Origin: Anaerolineae bacterium
Lineage (GTDB): Bacteria; Desulfobacterota; Desulfobacteria; Desulfobacterales; ETH-SRB1
Assembly (NCBI GenBank): GCA_035529315.1
Contig: DATKWZ010000045.1
Span: 1 to 64,000 of the forward strand
Reading direction: 5' to 3'
Length of the DNA: 64,000 bases
Shown: positions 8,073 to 14,542 of the stretch, piece after piece
How the letters are laid out: each line of letters opens with the position of its first letter
Position numbering within the stretch: the first letter of the stretch is position 1
Program-made: the position numbers and the translations under genes
The notes under the pieces: model-generated
Told to the model about the DNA's origin: nothing
Database searches by the model: none
What the model saw: the letters and a program-made list of their open reading frames with translations, nothing else

Positions 8073-10889
8073 TTATGCCACAAGCCTTTCATTTAAATCA
8101 TCTAAGATGATATTTAATTCTTCACCGAATAATTGATAAACCTTTCCAATACCACCTGCCTGCGAAAAAGGCGCATATTCAAAATCATCTGTTTCAATGC
8201 TTAAGTTTCCTGCAATATGATCACGGATCATCTCAAGCCAGCGAATCTGTTCTTCCGTGAACTTTTTACCCTGCTGTGCCAACCATGCATTGAAATTTGT
8301 ATCAACCTTTTCCGGAAACGGCACAAGCTCGTTTTCCTGATCAAGCGCATACCGCACAAGAGACACCAAATCCGTTAAAATATGCGGGCCGCTTGCACCA
8401 CGAACCTTTGACTTTTCAAGAGCAGCATAGGCCATCCAGAGATTATTTTCAGTCCAAAGATGAGGCGGCTTTTTTATGGTATCTGCAAGCTCTTTTATAT
8501 TTTCAAACCGTAAACGCGCCTTGTACGGCCTGGAGTAAAGAATCTGCAGGGCTGTGATTTCATCCTTATTTTTCTCAATAAACTTCTTAAAGGACTCGAT
8601 CATGCCTTTTGCTTTTTCCATGGCCTCTGCGCTGAAGCCTGCTTCTATAACCTTATCAGGACTGACATTATCAATGATCTGCTCGTTCTTTTTCTTAATC
8701 TCTATCAATAGATTCCGAAGCTCTGGATTATGCAGGGGCTTGACCGCGTTTTTTATCAGGCTTGTTGCAGCTTCCTGAATTTCTTCTTCGGAAGGCTGTG
8801 CCGTGCTGCCTGCCTCGCCCAGCTCGGTGCAGGCAAGTTCAACCTGTTTGTCAGGATTAATGGCATTTACAAGATCATACGTAAGCTCACCCAGGCTTTT
8901 GCCATCTGCAAGCTCAATTATCTTTGAACTGTCTTCTTTTGTAAGGTTTTTGTTTAAACGCGCAATGCGGACAGCAATTGAGGAAATAACATCCGGTTCT
9001 GTGTTTCCAAGACTTACAGCTTGGAGAAGCTTTTCAAAAGAGACCGATTTTTTCCGGTCCATGGGCCTTGAGTCGGTCTTATCCCGCTCGCAGACACCAA
9101 CAGCATCCACAATGACATAGTGATCCTTGGTTTTTGCATCAGATGTTACAGATTGCAGGTCATCATCATTTATAACACGTACGCCCCGACCCTTCATCTG
9201 CTCAAAATATCCGAGGGATTTTACGCTGCGCATGAACATTACAACTTCAAGAGGCTTGATGTCAGTGCCGGTTGCGATCATATCCACGGTGACCGCTATT
9301 CGCGGAAAGTAGAAGTTGCGAAATTCGGCGATGAGTTCATCCGTCTTTTTGCCGGTTGTCTTGTAGGTAATTTTCTGGGCAAAGTCATTGCCCTTTGCAA
9401 ATTCCTCGCGCACAATCTTGACAATGTCTTCAGCGTGGCTGTCATCTTTTGCAAAAATTACGGTCTTTGGAACCTCGGTCCGGCCGGGAAAAATATCTGT
9501 AAACAGCTTGTCACGAAAAGTACGGATAACAGTGCGGATCTGATCCTTAGCAACCACATCGCGGTCCAGTTGATTGGGGGTGTATTCGAGGTCTTCGTCC
9601 AGCCGCTCCCAGCGCACAGATCGGGTTTCACGGTCCCGTTTGTCTACATAATAACCAGCTTCGACAATAGAACCACCTTCTGTAATTTCGGTCTTGATGC
9701 GGTACACGTCGTAATTCACGTTCACGCCGTCGGCCACAGCCTCCTCATGCCCATATTCCATGACAAGATTCTGATTGAAAAAACCAAAAGTCTGTTTGCT
9801 GGGTGTGGCGGTAAGGCCTATAAGATATGAATCAAAATATTCCAGCACCTGGCGCCAAAGATTGTAAATGGAACGGTGACACTCGTCTGTAATTATAAAG
9901 TCAAAGGTCTCAATAGGGATGGCCGGATTATATTCTATGGGCGGCACCTCACCATAGACTTTTTCCAAGCCCTGAACAGATTTTTCCTCATCCTCCTCAG
10001 CAAGATCCTCACCCTTAAGCATTGAATAAAGACGCTGGATAGTGCAGATGCAGACTCGTGCAGTGAAATCCAGATTTTTTGAAGTAAGGCGTTGAACAAT
10101 GAATTCTTCGCTGAATTTATAGTTGTTATAGGGAGAAACATACTGCTGGAATTCCTTAAGGGTCTGTCTGCCCAGATTGCCGCGGTCAACAAGAAACAAA
10201 ATCCGGCGTGCCTTTGCAAACTTTATAAGCCTGTAAATAAAGCTGATGGCAGTAAATGTCTTGCCTGATCCTGTGGCCATCTGTATAAGAGCGCGTGGAC
10301 GGTTTTCTGAAAAAGATTTTTCCAGTTTTTTTATAGCCCTGATCTGGGCAGACCAGAGGCCTTCTTCAATGAGCGTAGGCATCTGTTTCAGGCGCAGATT
10401 CAGGGTGGAAGGCTTGCCAAAAGGGGACTGTGTTTCAAGCATATTCCCTTTAACTAAAGGCGGGTCTTCATTTATCCAATCTGCCAATGTTTCAGGGCGA
10501 TGGAAAGAAAAGACATTCCGGGAACGAGGGTCAGGTTCAAGGTCATTTGTAAAACGGGTCTCCACACCTGTGGATTCATAACAGAAAGGGAGTGGCCGAT
10601 ACCAGGCGGGAAGCTGCTCGGGCAGGCCGGTTTTGTATTTGTCGGACTGGATTTCAACGCCTGTAAGGGTAGTTCCGACTTTTTTTGCCTCAACAACCCC
10701 TGATGCCTTGCCATTTACATAAAGGAGATAATCTGCAAAGCCATGCCCCTGATTTAACGGGAACTCCCTGATGGCCACCCCTTTTTTTGCATGTATATTG
10801 ACGCCTGCGAGATCCTGGACATCCCAGCCGGACAAGTCCAACATTTTGTCGATGGTTTCCCTGGCTTTTTGTTCAGGTGTTTTGGTCAT
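8073..10889 (-). CDS. hsdR: Type I restriction-modification system, R subunit (EcoEI-like)
   Basis: A 938-residue HsdR, the motor and nuclease of the type I complex. The N-terminal PD-(D/E)XK nuclease motif is visible as Asp53 with Glu67-Ala-Lys69 (ADYLLYV … VVEAKK). The helicase part has Walker A ATGSGKT at 205-211, DECH at 335-338, LTATP at 359-363, and the motif VI-like region QMKGRGVRV. The C-terminal domain resembles the EcoEI R-protein C-terminus. All catalytic motifs are intact, so restriction should be functional. It is the first gene of the minus-strand operon; a leader-like repeat with promoter and terminator lies about 290 bases upstream. Confidence 0.95.
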   Translation of the reverse strand: MTKTPEQKARETIDKMLDLSGWDVQDLAGVNIHAKKGVAIREFPLNQGHGFADYLLYVNGKASGVVEAKKVGTTLTGVEIQSDKYKTGLPEQLPAWYRPLPFCYESTGVETRFTNDLEPDPRSRNVFSFHRPETLADWINEDPPLVKGNMLETQSPFGKPSTLNLRLKQMPTLIEEGLWSAQIRAIKKLEKSFSENRPRALIQMATGSGKTFTAISFIYRLIKFAKARRILFLVDRGNLGRQTLKEFQQYVSPYNNYKFSEEFIVQRLTSKNLDFTARVCICTIQRLYSMLKGEDLAEEDEEKSVQGLEKVYGEVPPIEYNPAIPIETFDFIITDECHRSIYNLWRQVLEYFDSYLIGLTATPSKQTFGFFNQNLVMEYGHEEAVADGVNVNYDVYRIKTEITEGGSIVEAGYYVDKRDRETRSVRWERLDEDLEYTPNQLDRDVVAKDQIRTVIRTFRDKLFTDIFPGRTEVPKTVIFAKDDSHAEDIVKIVREEFAKGNDFAQKITYKTTGKKTDELIAEFRNFYFPRIAVTVDMIATGTDIKPLEVVMFMRSVKSLGYFEQMKGRGVRVINDDDLQSVTSDAKTKDHYVIVDAVGVCERDKTDSRPMDRKKSVSFEKLLQAVSLGNTEPDVISSIAVRIARLNKNLTKEDSSKIIELADGKSLGELTYDLVNAINPDKQVELACTELGEAGSTAQPSEEEIQEAATSLIKNAVKPLHNPELRNLLIEIKKKNEQIIDNVSPDKVIEAGFSAEAMEKAKGMIESFKKFIEKNKDEITALQILYSRPYKARLRFENIKELADTIKKPPHLWTENNLWMAYAALEKSKVRGASGPHILTDLVSLVRYALDQENELVPFPEKVDTNFNAWLAQQGKKFTEEQIRWLEMIRDHIAGNLSIETDDFEYAPFSQAGGIGKVYQLFGEELNIILDDLNERLVA

Positions 10890-10965: not shown

Positions 10966-11002
10966 ACTTACGCTCTTCAGTTTATAAGTTTATATCGTCA
11001 AG
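10966..11002 (-). repeat. Small intergenic repeat, copy upstream of hsdR
   Basis: Read on the minus strand, this is TTGACGATATAAACTTATAA followed by ACTGAAGAG and a hairpin (GAGCGTA / TACGCTC). Closely similar units lie at 13068-13110 and, in part, 13509-13541. Between units the hairpin sequence changes but its ability to pair is partly kept. This copy is in the hsdR upstream region. Confidence 0.6.
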
Positions 11003-11139
11003 AATAGAACAGCCAAATCCTTTTTTTAGTTCATGGTTTCAAGCTTCCCAGCCAAGCAGAGGGGAGCTTCGACCGTAAGGAAGTTTGCTGTTTTTGTATT
11101 CGCTCGCTATTGCGGTTCAGGTCCAAGCCTGTAAAGCAA

Positions 11140-11186
11140 AAAGCCCCATCCTTCATATTGCTGAAGAAATGGGGCTTTATTTTTTT
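11140..11186. terminator. Bidirectional terminator hairpin in leader repeat, copy 1
   Basis: AAAGCCCCAT (11140-11149) pairs with ATGGGGCTTT (11169-11178), with an inner CTTCA/TGAAG pair. On the minus strand the hairpin is followed by five T, on the plus strand by seven T after one A. It directly follows the stop codon of the nine-codon ORF on the minus strand, an attenuator-like layout. Confidence 0.75.
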
Positions 11187-11206
11187 GTAATCCAATGATT
11201 GGTCAC
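11177..11206 (-). CDS. Nine-codon leader ORF (MTNHWITKK), copy 1, GTG start
   Basis: GTG at 11206 preceded by CAGGAGGATCGG opens a frame of nine codons reading (M)TNHWITKK, and TAA follows at the base of the terminator hairpin. The second repeat copy encodes the same peptide from ATG at 13643. The peptide could be a leader peptide controlling the terminator. Another frame is open across the whole repeat in both copies from a TTG without ribosome binding site, so peptide coding is not proven. Confidence 0.4.
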   Translation of the reverse strand: MTNHWITKK

Positions 11207-11256
11207 CCGATCCTCCTGTTTGAGGTTCAAAAAACAGACCGAAATTAATCTTTGGC

Positions 11257-11285
11257 AAGATATATTAAGCGAACATACAAGTCAA
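11257..11285 (-). promoter_or_regulatory. Sigma-70-like promoter of leader repeat, copy 1
   Basis: On the minus strand TTGACT (11285-11280) is separated by 17 bases from TATCTT (11262-11257). Both hexamers and the spacing are conserved in copy 2. The start would lie about 50 bases before the nine-codon ORF. Confidence 0.5.
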
Positions 11286-11405
11286 TTTAATTTGTTATCT
11301 TTTCGATAAGTTATCCCCCTATCCCTTGTCTTTTTTGCCATAAGTAGCCTGATCGTGGGATGGGGGTCGGGCCACGCTATACATCTGATATTTATGGGTT
11401 AACCT

Positions 11406-11450
11406 CCCAAGGAACCAAACGCCGAAATTCAATCCTGTCCCCCTTTTTCT
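11406..11450. repeat. Short repeat shared with 1724-1763
   Basis: CCCAAGGAACCAAACGCC followed by GAAATTCAATCC and a C/T-rich run; same orientation as the copy at 1724. The pair flanks the restriction-modification block on both sides. Confidence 0.7.
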
Positions 11451-11627
11451 CCCTGTTGATTATCTCTCTTGAATCTCAATAATTATCCCTTGCTGTAGTA
11501 ATTTCGCCACAAATAATCGGCAAAAAGCTCCACATGGACTTCATGTTTTCAGCTCTATACTATTAACCCAAAAAGATCGATACTCTAGACAGAGAACGAT
11601 CTGCCTTTAACCATCTGTAATATTAAA

Positions 11628-12935
11628 ATGGTGAACAAAATGGAGAGAATGTTTTTAGGGTTGATCGCCCTCATGTTTTTGGGAAGCGGGCTTGCTTTTG
11701 CAGGGCCTTACGGGAATTCCGCTCATGGGGATAGCGCAACCTTCGGCGTGCTTCGAACCGGAACGAATCAATATGCTCGGGGCAACTGCGCCCACTGCCA
11801 CGAACAGCATGCAAGTATTGCAGGGGCTGAGCCGTCTCCAAGCACCGGTGACGCCGCAGGGCCTGATAGGTTTTGTCTCCTGGCGCAAAATTTTAACACT
11901 TCAGCATTAGCAGGGTCTTATGCCCAGGATGATAATGCGTGCTTTTACTGCCATATAGATACCGGTTATCTGCAAAACGAAGTAATTCTAAACTACGATT
12001 ACAGCGCTACCTTTGGTAACGCTTCAATTGTTGAAGATTCTATTTTCGAGCTCTTTAACAAATTGTCTTCTCACGATCTGAACAATGTGCTTACTTTTGC
12101 GAAGGCTAACTGGAGTTCCACATTTAAAACAGGCTCCAACCCTTGCAGCGCATGCCACAATGTTCATAAAGCCAAACAGAATAAAGCAAACCCCGGCGAT
12201 CCGACATATACGGCCATATCCAAGCCCTCTGCTCATGACGAGCTTTGGGGTGATAGTGCTGGTGAGAAGTTGAGCGATTATACAAGTTATTATCGGCCGC
12301 CCTATTCTAAAAGCACAGCACCTGTTAAGTACGAACCCGACATGACCGCAAGTGAACCCGCGGAAGGATGGGGTTCCAATATGCCGGATTATATCACCTT
12401 CTGCCAGGACTGCCATTCCTCGAGCATGACCGGGTCACCATATAGTCTTCCTAATACACCCATTGATTGGAGTTCAATAGGAGGCGAAGCAGGCGGCGAT
12501 AAGCATGGCACAAATGTTGCCACCGCCTCAAGCGCGGCGGCAATGAATCTGCTTGAGCCGTATGCTACAGCGTGGGATGCCAGCGGGCTTGTTCTTTCCT
12601 GCACCGACTGTCATGAGCCGCACGGGTCAAAGAATCTGTACTTGGTAAGAAGAAGGATAAACGGCGGTGTATTAGGAGACTTATATGACGATGCAACCTC
12701 GCAAGAGATGAGAATTGTTTGTTATCGCTGTCATAACATCAGCGGGGCAGGTATGAACTATACGATACACCACCAGGATGCCGACGCGCCGTATAAAAAC
12801 GCTATGGGGTGCGGCGCGGGAGGAGGATGTCATTCGGCTGGAAATGGAGCCCCCATAGATTGCAACACTTGTCACTATCACGGTGGGCAAGTCAGCAATT
12901 GTACGCAGGCTCCAGCCACCAGGCGAACGTTTTGA
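11628..12935 (+). CDS. Multihaem c-type cytochrome, periplasmic
   Basis: A 435-residue exported protein with a signal peptide (MFLGLIALMFLGSGLAFA, cleavage near residue 25) and seven CXXCH haem motifs in order: CAHCH, CFYCH, CSACH, CQDCH, CTDCH, CYRCH and CNTCH. Between the last two is GCGAGGGCH, which would be a non-standard CX5CH. Many free histidines could serve as distal ligands. Such proteins carry electrons in the periplasm or to outside acceptors. The last 15 residues after CNTCHYHGG (…SNCTQAPATRRTF) look atypical, and a neighbouring frame continues as YAGSSHQANVLKLGEG, so a frameshift near 12,900 may have shortened the gene. No strong ribosome binding site is seen; the ATG four codons in (MERMF) is an alternative start. 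Confidence 0.85.
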   Translation: MVNKMERMFLGLIALMFLGSGLAFAGPYGNSAHGDSATFGVLRTGTNQYARGNCAHCHEQHASIAGAEPSPSTGDAAGPDRFCLLAQNFNTSALAGSYAQDDNACFYCHIDTGYLQNEVILNYDYSATFGNASIVEDSIFELFNKLSSHDLNNVLTFAKANWSSTFKTGSNPCSACHNVHKAKQNKANPGDPTYTAISKPSAHDELWGDSAGEKLSDYTSYYRPPYSKSTAPVKYEPDMTASEPAEGWGSNMPDYITFCQDCHSSSMTGSPYSLPNTPIDWSSIGGEAGGDKHGTNVATASSAAAMNLLEPYATAWDASGLVLSCTDCHEPHGSKNLYLVRRRINGGVLGDLYDDATSQEMRIVCYRCHNISGAGMNYTIHHQDADAPYKNAMGCGAGGGCHSAGNGAPIDCNTCHYHGGQVSNCTQAPATRRTF

Positions 12936-13067
12936 AGCTGGGTGAGGGCGCCACGATACACTTTCGAAATCCAAATTCCGACTCCAGCCACTGACAGTGT
13001 TCCAAACTATCTGACCTGCAATCGGCATATAGCCCTATAATCGCCCAGAATCATACAGATCTACAAC

Positions 13068-13118
13068 ACTGGAGTATTTACGGGACATCCTCTTCAGTTT
13101 ATAAGTTTGTATCGTCAA
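13068..13118 (-). repeat. Small intergenic repeat, copy after the cytochrome gene
   Basis: On the minus strand TTGACGATACAAACTTATAA then ACTGAAGAGGATGTCCCGTA and AATACTC, closely matching 10966-11002. The 12,936-13,171 gap contains this unit and otherwise nothing that I can call. Confidence 0.6.
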
Positions 13119-13171
13119 TGTGTTGGGATTGGAACGTTCTGTACAGACACCAGCATTACATTGTGTGCCGG

Positions 13172-13483
13172 TTACTCCTTTGGAATATCGATCTTTCTTT
13201 TTTCAGGGTTTTTTTGCTGACGATAAAATATTGCAATATGACCAATCATTTTCACCAACTCGGAAGCGGTTTCTTTTTCAATGACGCCGGCTATTTTTTC
13301 CTTCTGGCTTTTTTCCTTGAAATCAATAAATTTTACCTTAATAAGCTCATGCTTTTTTAATGACTCATCAACAGCTTCTGTTAGAGCAGGCGAAATTCCC
13401 TTCTGCCCGACAAAAACCAGTGGTTTCATGCCGTGGGCAAGACCTTTCAAATATTTCTTCTGATACCCTTTCAGTTTTTCCAC
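13172..13483 (-). CDS. yhbY: YhbY-family RNA-binding protein (CRM domain)
   Basis: A 103-residue single CRM-domain protein. Known family members associate with pre-50S ribosomal particles and help large-subunit maturation. The opening LKGYQKKYLKGLAHGMKPLV, the RNA-binding loop GQKG (residues 27-30) and the LIKVKF strand are characteristic; the length is typical. A GGAGGT lies upstream of the ATG at 13483. It is a single gene, preceded about 130 bases upstream by copy 2 of the leader repeat, whose terminator would have to be read through for expression from that promoter. Confidence 0.92.
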   Translation of the reverse strand: MEKLKGYQKKYLKGLAHGMKPLVFVGQKGISPALTEAVDESLKKHELIKVKFIDFKEKSQKEKIAGVIEKETASELVKMIGHIAIFYRQQKNPEKRKIDIPKE

Positions 13484-13508
13484 CCATACCTCCGTTTGAA
13501 AATTGTTT

Positions 13509-13541
13509 TGAGTATTTATGGGATACTCCTCAGTTTATAAG
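13509..13541 (-). repeat. Small intergenic repeat, partial copy upstream of yhbY
   Basis: On the minus strand CTTATAAACTGAGGAGTATC then CCATAAATACTC, with GAGTAT/ATACTC able to pair. It matches the right part of the units at 10966 and 13068. In both the hsdR and yhbY upstream regions it lies between the leader repeat and the gene. Confidence 0.5.
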
Positions 13542-13574
13542 AACGTTGTTGTTTCAGTTCCAAGCCGGTAAAGC

Positions 13575-13623
13575 AAAACGCCCCATCCTTCATGTGTCTG
13601 AAGAAACGGGGCTTTATTTTTTT
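13575..13623. terminator. Bidirectional terminator hairpin in leader repeat, copy 2
   Basis: GCCCCAT pairs with the ACGGGGC side around an inner CTTCA/TGAAG stem. Seven T follow on the plus strand and GTTTT on the minus strand. The stem has mismatches relative to copy 1, so termination toward yhbY may be leakier. Confidence 0.6.
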
Positions 13624-13643
13624 GTAATCCAATGATTGGTCAT
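13614..13643 (-). CDS. Nine-codon leader ORF MTNHWITKK, copy 2, ATG start
   Basis: CAGGAGGATCAG precedes ATG at 13643. The frame encodes MTNHWITKK and stops with TAA at the foot of the terminator hairpin. The only coding difference from copy 1 is ATG in place of GTG, i.e. a start codon swapped for another valid start codon. Confidence 0.4.
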   Translation of the reverse strand: MTNHWITKK

Positions 13644-13693
13644 CTGATCCTCCTGTTTGAGGTTCAAAAAACAGACCGAAATTAATCTTTGGC

Positions 13694-13722
13694 AAGATAT
13701 ATTAAGCGAATATACAAGTCAA
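13694..13722 (-). promoter_or_regulatory. Sigma-70-like promoter of leader repeat, copy 2
   Basis: TTGACT (13722-13717), 17-base spacer, TATCTT (13699-13694) on the minus strand, identical in hexamers and spacing to copy 1. Confidence 0.5.
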
Positions 13723-13755
13723 TTTAATTTGTTATCTTTTCGATAAGTTATCACT

Positions 13756-13914
13756 CTATCCCTTGAAGGTTTTGCCACAAGTTGCGTTTTTACGCAAAGC
13801 AGCTAATTGCAAAGCCACGTCCCAGGCATCACCGGCCTTTTGGTAGCGCCCGGCAAAATCAGGATCTTTCAACTGCTTTTCAAGGTATCGGTCAAAATTG
13901 GTTTTTTGTTTCAT
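13756..13914 (-). pseudogene. Truncated HigA-like (XRE-type) antitoxin fragment
   Basis: From the ATG at 13914 the frame reads MKQKTNFDRYLEKQLKDPDF, AGRYQKAGDAWDVALQLAAL, then RKNA. This is the N-terminal region that precedes the helix-turn-helix in HigA/XRE antitoxins. It then runs into ATCGKTFKG and a stop within repeat copy 2. The helix-turn-helix is gone and no toxin gene is next to it. The frame stays open upstream for 41 more codons, but that part reads as non-coding and covers a hairpin. A remnant is the best explanation. Confidence 0.6.
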
Positions 13915-13935
13915 GCCGGATTTAACAGACAAGGG

Positions 13936-13960
13936 TTCGCCCCGCTTGCGGCGGGGCGAA
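13936..13960. repeat. Perfect 10-bp-arm hairpin
   Basis: TTCGCCCCGC, a five-base loop, then GCGGGGCGAA. It is GC-rich within an AT-rich region, with no T-run, so more likely a REP-type palindrome than a terminator. Confidence 0.6.
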
Positions 13961-14017
13961 CATCGGAAATGAGCGGCGAAAACCGGAGTTTGCGTCTGCT
14001 TGATTGAGGTTGTGTGT

Positions 14018-14542
14018 TTAAATATTTTTATTTTCAAAAAATTTAAACAAAACTAAAATTGCGGCAATAAAAATAATAATAACAACCCAATGGTTTATTT
14101 TTAATATATCCGGCAGAGTGATTTTGCCGAAATTACCCCAAGCCAAAACATTGCTTTTTAGTGCCGGGTATACTTCAGCATACAAACCAGCTCCAACCAA
14201 CATTCCCAATATAGCCCACAACGCATGTATGCGTCCTTCACCTAAAGCTCCTAATGATGTTCCAGGGCAATATCCGGCAATAGCCCAGCCAATACCAAAA
14301 AGCAATCCACCTATAATTTGAGCAGCTACGTTGGTTTCTTTAATGCTTAATGAGATCACGCCAAGGTCTTTAAAAAGGTATATACCTGTTACGCCGACTA
14401 TAATCGCTGAAAACATAAATTTAATGATAGTCATATCTTTAAGCAGCAAAAAACCGACTTGTCGTTCAAACCGTATTACCTGCGCTTTTTGTAAAAGGAA
14501 ACCAAAGAGGATGCCTGTGATAATACCTAATAGAAGTTCCAT
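14018..14542 (-). CDS. YeeE/YedE-family membrane transporter, C-terminal-type half
   Basis: A 174-residue, multi-spanning inner-membrane protein of the YeeE/YedE (DUF395, sulfur transport) family. The family signature is GYCPGTSLGALGEG at about residues 92-105, containing the conserved Cys used for thiosulfate or persulfide passage in characterised members. About five hydrophobic segments are visible. Its start is two bases after the stop of the partner half at 14545-15084, with AAAGGAGGG as ribosome binding site. Together the two halves correspond to one full-length YeeE. Import of a reduced sulfur species is likely; the exact substrate is not visible. Confidence 0.88.
   Translation of the reverse strand: MELLLGIITGILFGFLLQKAQVIRFERQVGFLLLKDMTIIKFMFSAIIVGVTGIYLFKDLGVISLSIKETNVAAQIIGGLLFGIGWAIAGYCPGTSLGALGEGRIHALWAILGMLVGAGLYAEVYPALKSNVLAWGNFGKITLPDILKINHWVVIIIFIAAILVLFKFFENKNI

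Follow-up and report, generated by a model that had tools for sequence, protein, structure and literature searches.

What is the role of a short cassette that stands twice in one window, the 64,000-nucleotide stretch of DNA analysed here, and each time faces a different minus-strand gene, hsdR for the first copy and yhbY for the second? The window belongs to a Candidatus Desulfaltia-like Desulfobacterales MAG, a sulfate reducer. A first-pass annotation had described two direct copies of about 235 bp, each with a promoter, an AGGAGG, a nine-codon ORF and a terminator, and had proposed either a transcription attenuator or an autonomous tiny-peptide unit, belonging to no described family known to it. 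The description of the two copies is confirmed: 11115-11349 and 13552-13786 align without gaps and are identical at 215 of 235 positions, the four parts can be read off directly on the minus strand of both, the genes they face are different, and the start codon, GTG in copy 1 and ATG in copy 2, is followed in both by ACC AAT CAT TGG ATT ACA AAA AAA TAA.

The two copies in the window

The minus-strand order, to which all coordinates in this section refer unless otherwise stated, is the same in both copies: first an upstream box, then TTGACT-17-TATCTT, then a leader in which AGGAGG lies under a CCUC/GAGG hairpin, and finally the nine codons, a stop and a terminator. In copy 1, the upstream box GATAACTTATCGAAAAGATAAC (11294-11315), with a direct repeat GATAAC, constitutes the left edge of the homology in many copies. 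It is followed by the sigma-70-like promoter (11257-11285; TTGACT at 11285-11280 and TATCTT at 11262-11257, against a -10 of TATATT in most copies of the family), by the leader GGTCTGTTTTTTGAACCTCAAACAGGAGG (11212-11240), whose CCUC/GAGG hairpin covers the Shine-Dalgarno (SD) sequence AGGAGG (11217-11212), by the ORF from GTG to TAA (11177-11206; VTNHWITKK, the initiator being taken as Met), and by the terminator hairpin with its T-run (11138-11180). In copy 2, the corresponding parts are the upstream box (13731-13752), the TTGACT-17-TATCTT promoter (13694-13722; TTGACT at 13722-13717, TATCTT at 13699-13694), the leader with its SD (13649-13677; AGGAGG at 13654-13649), the ORF from ATG to TAA (13614-13643; MTNHWITKK) and the terminator hairpin (13575-13617). 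In both, the 5′ arm of this hairpin starts at the stop codon and the hairpin is followed by T's, TTTTT in copy 1 and an interrupted, weaker GTTTT in copy 2. Folding of the 151-nt RNA gives -46.2 kcal/mol (z = -3.6). Furthermore, an A-run 5′ of the copy 1 hairpin makes it terminator-like on both strands.

Beyond the copy 1 terminator lie R2, a separate REP-like GC-hairpin repeat (11038-11114), the TAIL module (10972-11035) and the hsdR-like type I restriction subunit gene (8073-10889; Pfam EcoEI_R_C, ResIII and HSDR_N). Copy 2 is followed by a TAIL remnant (13510-13541), by yhbY (13172-13483; TIGR00253, 77.0 bits for a cut-off of 78.5) and by a solo TAIL (13072-13118), at which the block common to the window and genome G001 stops. 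On its other side, a HigA-like antitoxin gene (13756-14037) is truncated exactly at the start of copy 2. Between both cassettes, a multihaem CXXCH cytochrome-like gene occupies 11628-12935 of the plus strand.

A multi-copy family and its conserved parts

The repeat goes far beyond chance, since its own genome holds 16 full copies (covariance model, 99-149 bits), resolved from 19 BLAST pieces. About 60 copies exist across the family to which this genome belongs, with matches in six of six genomes of the same genus, in three other family members and in one genome of another family. When 84,980 species genomes were scanned for the leader pattern, it turned up in Desulfobacterales MAGs, including Candidatus Desulfaltia E21 and Eth-SRB1; three matches outside Desulfobacterota carried the search pattern alone, without the hairpin unit, and were set aside as chance. 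Neither the PLSDB plasmids nor the INPHARED phages contained a match to the leader, and IMG/VR gave nine short pattern matches, near the chance expectation. Rfam returned weak matches only, all below gathering scores, in agreement with the earlier suspicion that no family had been described, and neither Rfam nor the literature searched gave a description of this one. The leader family is real, multi-copy and lineage-specific.

Which part of the element has been kept? Over an alignment of 52 copies, expressed as majority identity, conservation is highest in the start region TTTTTTGAACCTCAAACAGGAGGATCANGTGACC and in the hairpin rather than in the peptide. The SD sequence AGGAGGATC reaches 98%, GTGACC (start plus codon 2) 96%, both hairpin arms 96% and TTTTTTGAACCTCAAAC 93%, the loop stands at 79%, and codons 3-5, the least conserved stretch, at 73%. 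The start codon is GTG in 50 of the 52 copies. The element is modular, composed of PROM, LEAD, CORE, an optional R2 and TAIL, and the SD and start were kept, as scored by script, in 16 of 20 left-truncated copies, which lack the promoter; among the four others, L119 does have an SD and start (GTGG) and L121 runs off the end of its contig. In several leaders, R2 occupies an identical position, with the terminator on one side of it and TAIL on the other. The TAIL motif TTGACGATACAAACTTATAAACTGAGGAGCATCCC also occurs solo, at about 20 positions in each of G000 and G001, often directly before genes. Moreover, a further recurrent module (..AACTGTATTAAATACAGCAATACGATATTATAAAG..) follows TAIL in several loci of several genomes, for example at L010 and L018, before a gene start.

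The covariance analysis that had been suggested for the hairpins did find compensatory changes in the terminator hairpin: for this hairpin together with the SD helix, 98.7% of cells are paired, and there are 17 further pair types as well as three double changes. The SD hairpin is almost invariant. An alternative helix, CUGUUU/AAACAG, was discarded, being without covariation and broken in many copies, and a search of the leader for an antiterminator structure found none. The A-run of the window family may have been kept as the U-tract of an opposite-strand terminator.

The same alignment bears on the idea that the nine residues MTNHWITKK form a functional peptide, acting for instance by stalling or signalling. 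The nine-codon frame is the commonest single outcome and I-T-K/N/R-K recurs; nevertheless, stops precede the hairpin in only 27 of 52 copies, and the other 25 read into or through it owing to changes in A-run length and short deletions, while codons 3-5 vary freely. Within the 52 copies of the window family there is no synonymous third-position signal and the reading frame is not conserved. The frames of these copies rule out the nine residues as a conserved product, and a functional peptide of any such kind is very improbable. The tiny-peptide unit of the first-pass annotation, which had itself named frameshifts in the nine codons as evidence against it, fails on these indels, on the missing stops and on the poor conservation of codons 3-5.

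When 292 genomes of the order were searched with the covariance model, genus g6 of family f4 showed weak matches in multiple copies. Weak matches in other families of the order were mostly ordinary terminators. The unit of this cousin family is AAAGGATTTAAC-ATG ACC GGA TAY AAT AAA GCC CC..., followed by a terminator that shares its GCCCC/GGGGC stem and its CTTCA/TGAAG upper stem with the window family, and BLAST recovered 30 pieces of it in three genomes (G177, G087 and G193; loci L237-L265). Its ORF reads MTGYN(K/Q)APxFR or MTGYN, ending directly before the hairpin or, often, with a TAA in the hairpin loop. Codon 2 is ACC, ACT or ACA and codon 4 TAC or TAT, with positions 1 and 2 of codons 2-4 nearly fixed; such synonymous variation is the pattern that a translated sequence would be expected to have. 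In the hairpin, a G-C to A-U exchange is compensated in 10 of 28 cases. By sequence reading, the cousin cargo includes Cmr1-like and AlbA_2-like genes. The reverse search, from the cousin model to the window family, gave weak matches on both strands. Homology of the two families is likely, resting largely on the hairpin and the ATG/GTG-ACC start.

Cargo, shared blocks and possible mobility

As had been suggested, the genes downstream of the element were listed in the relatives. They are mostly unrelated accessory genes, co-oriented with the leader in 42 of 51 copies at a median distance of 174 nt (p=4.7e-6 against an expectation of 0.52, taken from intergenic regions that lack the element, the counts being not fully independent, given the relatedness of the copies and their spread by recombination). 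Of the nine non-co-oriented cases, at least three (L011, L017 and L101) look like ORF-calling artefacts. On the upstream side, the neighbouring gene has the orientation of the leader in 32 of 49 copies. Judged by Pfam names, the cargo is mostly accessory, with a seemingly large share of defence and toxin-antitoxin genes: HsdR, N6/N4 methylase, BrxA, Cas10/Csm1, RAMP, TIR and, twice, YhcG, as well as RhuM, Fic, HigB, a Gp49-type toxin and ORF6N, a HigBA unit being among them. Other downstream genes are an M23 peptidase, a ParA-like protein, DUF2914, TPR, N-formylglutamate amidohydrolase, yhbY and several unknowns. Toxin-antitoxin genes are also present among the upstream neighbours, and the PADLOC totals for downstream versus upstream genes are not per-gene counts.

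Given that promoter, SD, ORF and terminator are self-sufficient within about 150 bp, the element might instead be an autonomous tiny transcription unit, a small RNA or a ribosome-trapping minigene, acting in trans and leaving the neighbouring gene uncontrolled. This is quite unlikely, as the next gene is co-oriented even where the promoter is lacking (13 of 16 truncated copies) and in 24 of 25 cases in the cousin family, and as nucleotides and frame differ between copies.

Comparison of related genomes adds information on how these elements may move. In G000, a two-gene block shared by L016 and L081 (95.8%) starts directly behind a solo TAIL; in both genomes the block ends at TAIL, and the cargo beyond it differs. 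The HigBA block of L012 and L101 (92.6%) extends from one PROM to the next, and the yhbY block (97.6%), shared by the window and G001, spans CORE to TAIL; to its left lies the truncated HigA-like gene in the window and a different toxin-antitoxin pair in G001. For the L018 copy, the alignment with relatives stops shortly after tRNA-Cys. Blocks common to related genomes thus start or end at the repeats, which means that the leader moves with cargo or is a recombination junction. Both homologous recombination between repeats and a mobile element would fit this pattern; a clean empty site complete with its two flanks did not turn up in these comparisons. Solo TAIL motifs also mark the ends of shared blocks, and longer relatives of the HigA-like gene adjoin leaders in G001, G004 and G006.

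These boundaries, together with the L018 flank and a hairpin that is terminator-like on both strands, speak for a dispersed repeat, either a marker of recombination junctions or a hitch-hiker on accessory genes, whose promoter and terminator are incidental or do no more than shield the cargo from transcription nearby. We regard this as possible, if somewhat doubtful: it leaves unexplained why SD and start are the best-kept parts and survive left truncation, as well as the synonymous variation of the cousin ORF, and mobility as such is compatible with a leader function.

The presence of toxin-antitoxin cargo also recalls integron gene cassettes, in which case the repeats would be attC or attI-type sites comparable to ORF-11 in attI1. 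Indeed, the class 1 attI1 has an 11-codon ORF that aids cassette expression (PMC8876359), integron integrase genes occur in 12 of 14 genomes searched, and one complete integrase (L087:3091-4080, G001:C25; TIGR02249, 450 bits) ends 55 bp from a leader. Nevertheless, the single IntI of the window's own genome lies on contig C34, which has no leader copy, and paired RYYYAAC/GTTRRRY core sites 40-140 bp apart were present in 0 of 63 copies, which rejects attC sites and makes the integron reading extremely improbable.

Translation, termination and comparison with known systems

The layout found is that of the pyrL-like class: an SD and start with an intrinsic terminator a few codons further on, 5′ of a co-oriented gene. 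Of the two earlier proposals, the attenuator layout is upheld by some 60 copies, the conserved SD and start, the compensatory changes in the hairpin and the prevailing co-orientation, whereas the tiny-peptide unit is not. Start region and terminator have been kept together, they precede co-oriented genes, and the reading frame stops at the hairpin or within it; as far as sequence can tell, this arrangement is that of translation-dependent attenuation. We consequently favour, with a probability of about 0.5, the reading that the cassettes are dispersed 5′ leader attenuators in which translation of the tiny ORF competes with the intrinsic terminator; the module is probably a shared on/off leader rather than a peptide gene.

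In such an attenuator, transcription would begin at the promoter of the module or, in promoter-less copies, come from upstream, and the RNA would bear a strong ribosome-binding site, a GTG or ATG start and, 5 to 11 codons later, the intrinsic terminator. With no ribosome on the tiny ORF, the hairpin would form and only a short RNA would result; a ribosome reaching the stop beside or inside the hairpin would hold its 5′ arm open and let the polymerase get to the downstream gene. The peptide sequence would be irrelevant, translation initiation being what counts. We infer that the module is transcribed, that read-through is conditional and would be favoured by ribosome loading, and that a signal is sensed. 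Against attenuation, 5-11 codons leave the ribosome little time to catch the polymerase unless the latter pauses, the frame of the window family is not conserved, and several of the downstream genes point the other way. It is equally possible that the leader is a mobile insulator, or that it is carried along as a passenger where recombination takes place.

Should the attenuator reading hold, a leader travelling with its cargo could let a single translation-sensing termination switch govern many defence and toxin-antitoxin modules that are otherwise unrelated (type I restriction, BREX, type III CRISPR, TIR, HigBA and others). A disturbance of translation, as in phage infection, would then shift the expression of the whole accessory set simultaneously. 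We hold this extension to be rather unlikely as it stands, and the leader family is a concrete candidate for such common control of defence genes. A leader present 16 times in a genome and kept before newly arrived accessory genes would show how the recipient provides acquired genes with ready-made regulation. The existence of two sequence-divergent families in one order allows this reading to be tested by comparison, as well as by experiment.

Attenuators normally belong to one operon, and pyrL is a single leader of a single operon, sensing UTP; here, in contrast, the short ORF precedes dozens of unrelated genes. The likeness to the E. coli pyrBI/pyrL attenuator lies in a leader ORF that comes close to, or runs into, an intrinsic terminator, where the ribosome can stop the hairpin, and trailing ribosomes are known to block intrinsic terminator hairpins, that of pyrL included (PMC5021804). 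Similarly, uORF-associated premature termination has been documented in E. coli (PMC7815308), and mdtU, vmlR and the ilvB-II uORF share a small ORF and premature termination in a 5′ UTR (PMC7815308, PMC9226507, PMC10272879), although they serve single operons, unlike the multi-copy, modular window family with its non-conserved peptide. The Correia repeat enclosed elements of Neisseria are likewise multi-copy non-coding elements that bring regulatory signals to their neighbours (PMC2649163, PMC5039591); unlike them, the leader has an SD, a start codon and a terminator, and a search for the terminal inverted repeats of Correia elements and MITEs found none in it and returned just its terminator hairpin along with a short palindrome. 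The ORF-11 of integron attI1 is also a tiny ORF with a good SD before exchangeable gene cassettes (PMC8876359). The leader differs from attI1 and attC in being devoid of attC core sites and in having a true terminator hairpin with a T-run as well as its own promoter. Nijveen, van Passel and colleagues reportedly described putative mobile promoters, near-identical promoter regions before unrelated genes; in the present family, the copied unit is an entire leader that includes an ORF and a terminator. What would be new about the family is that a known regulatory principle occurs in it dispersed and in association with cargo.
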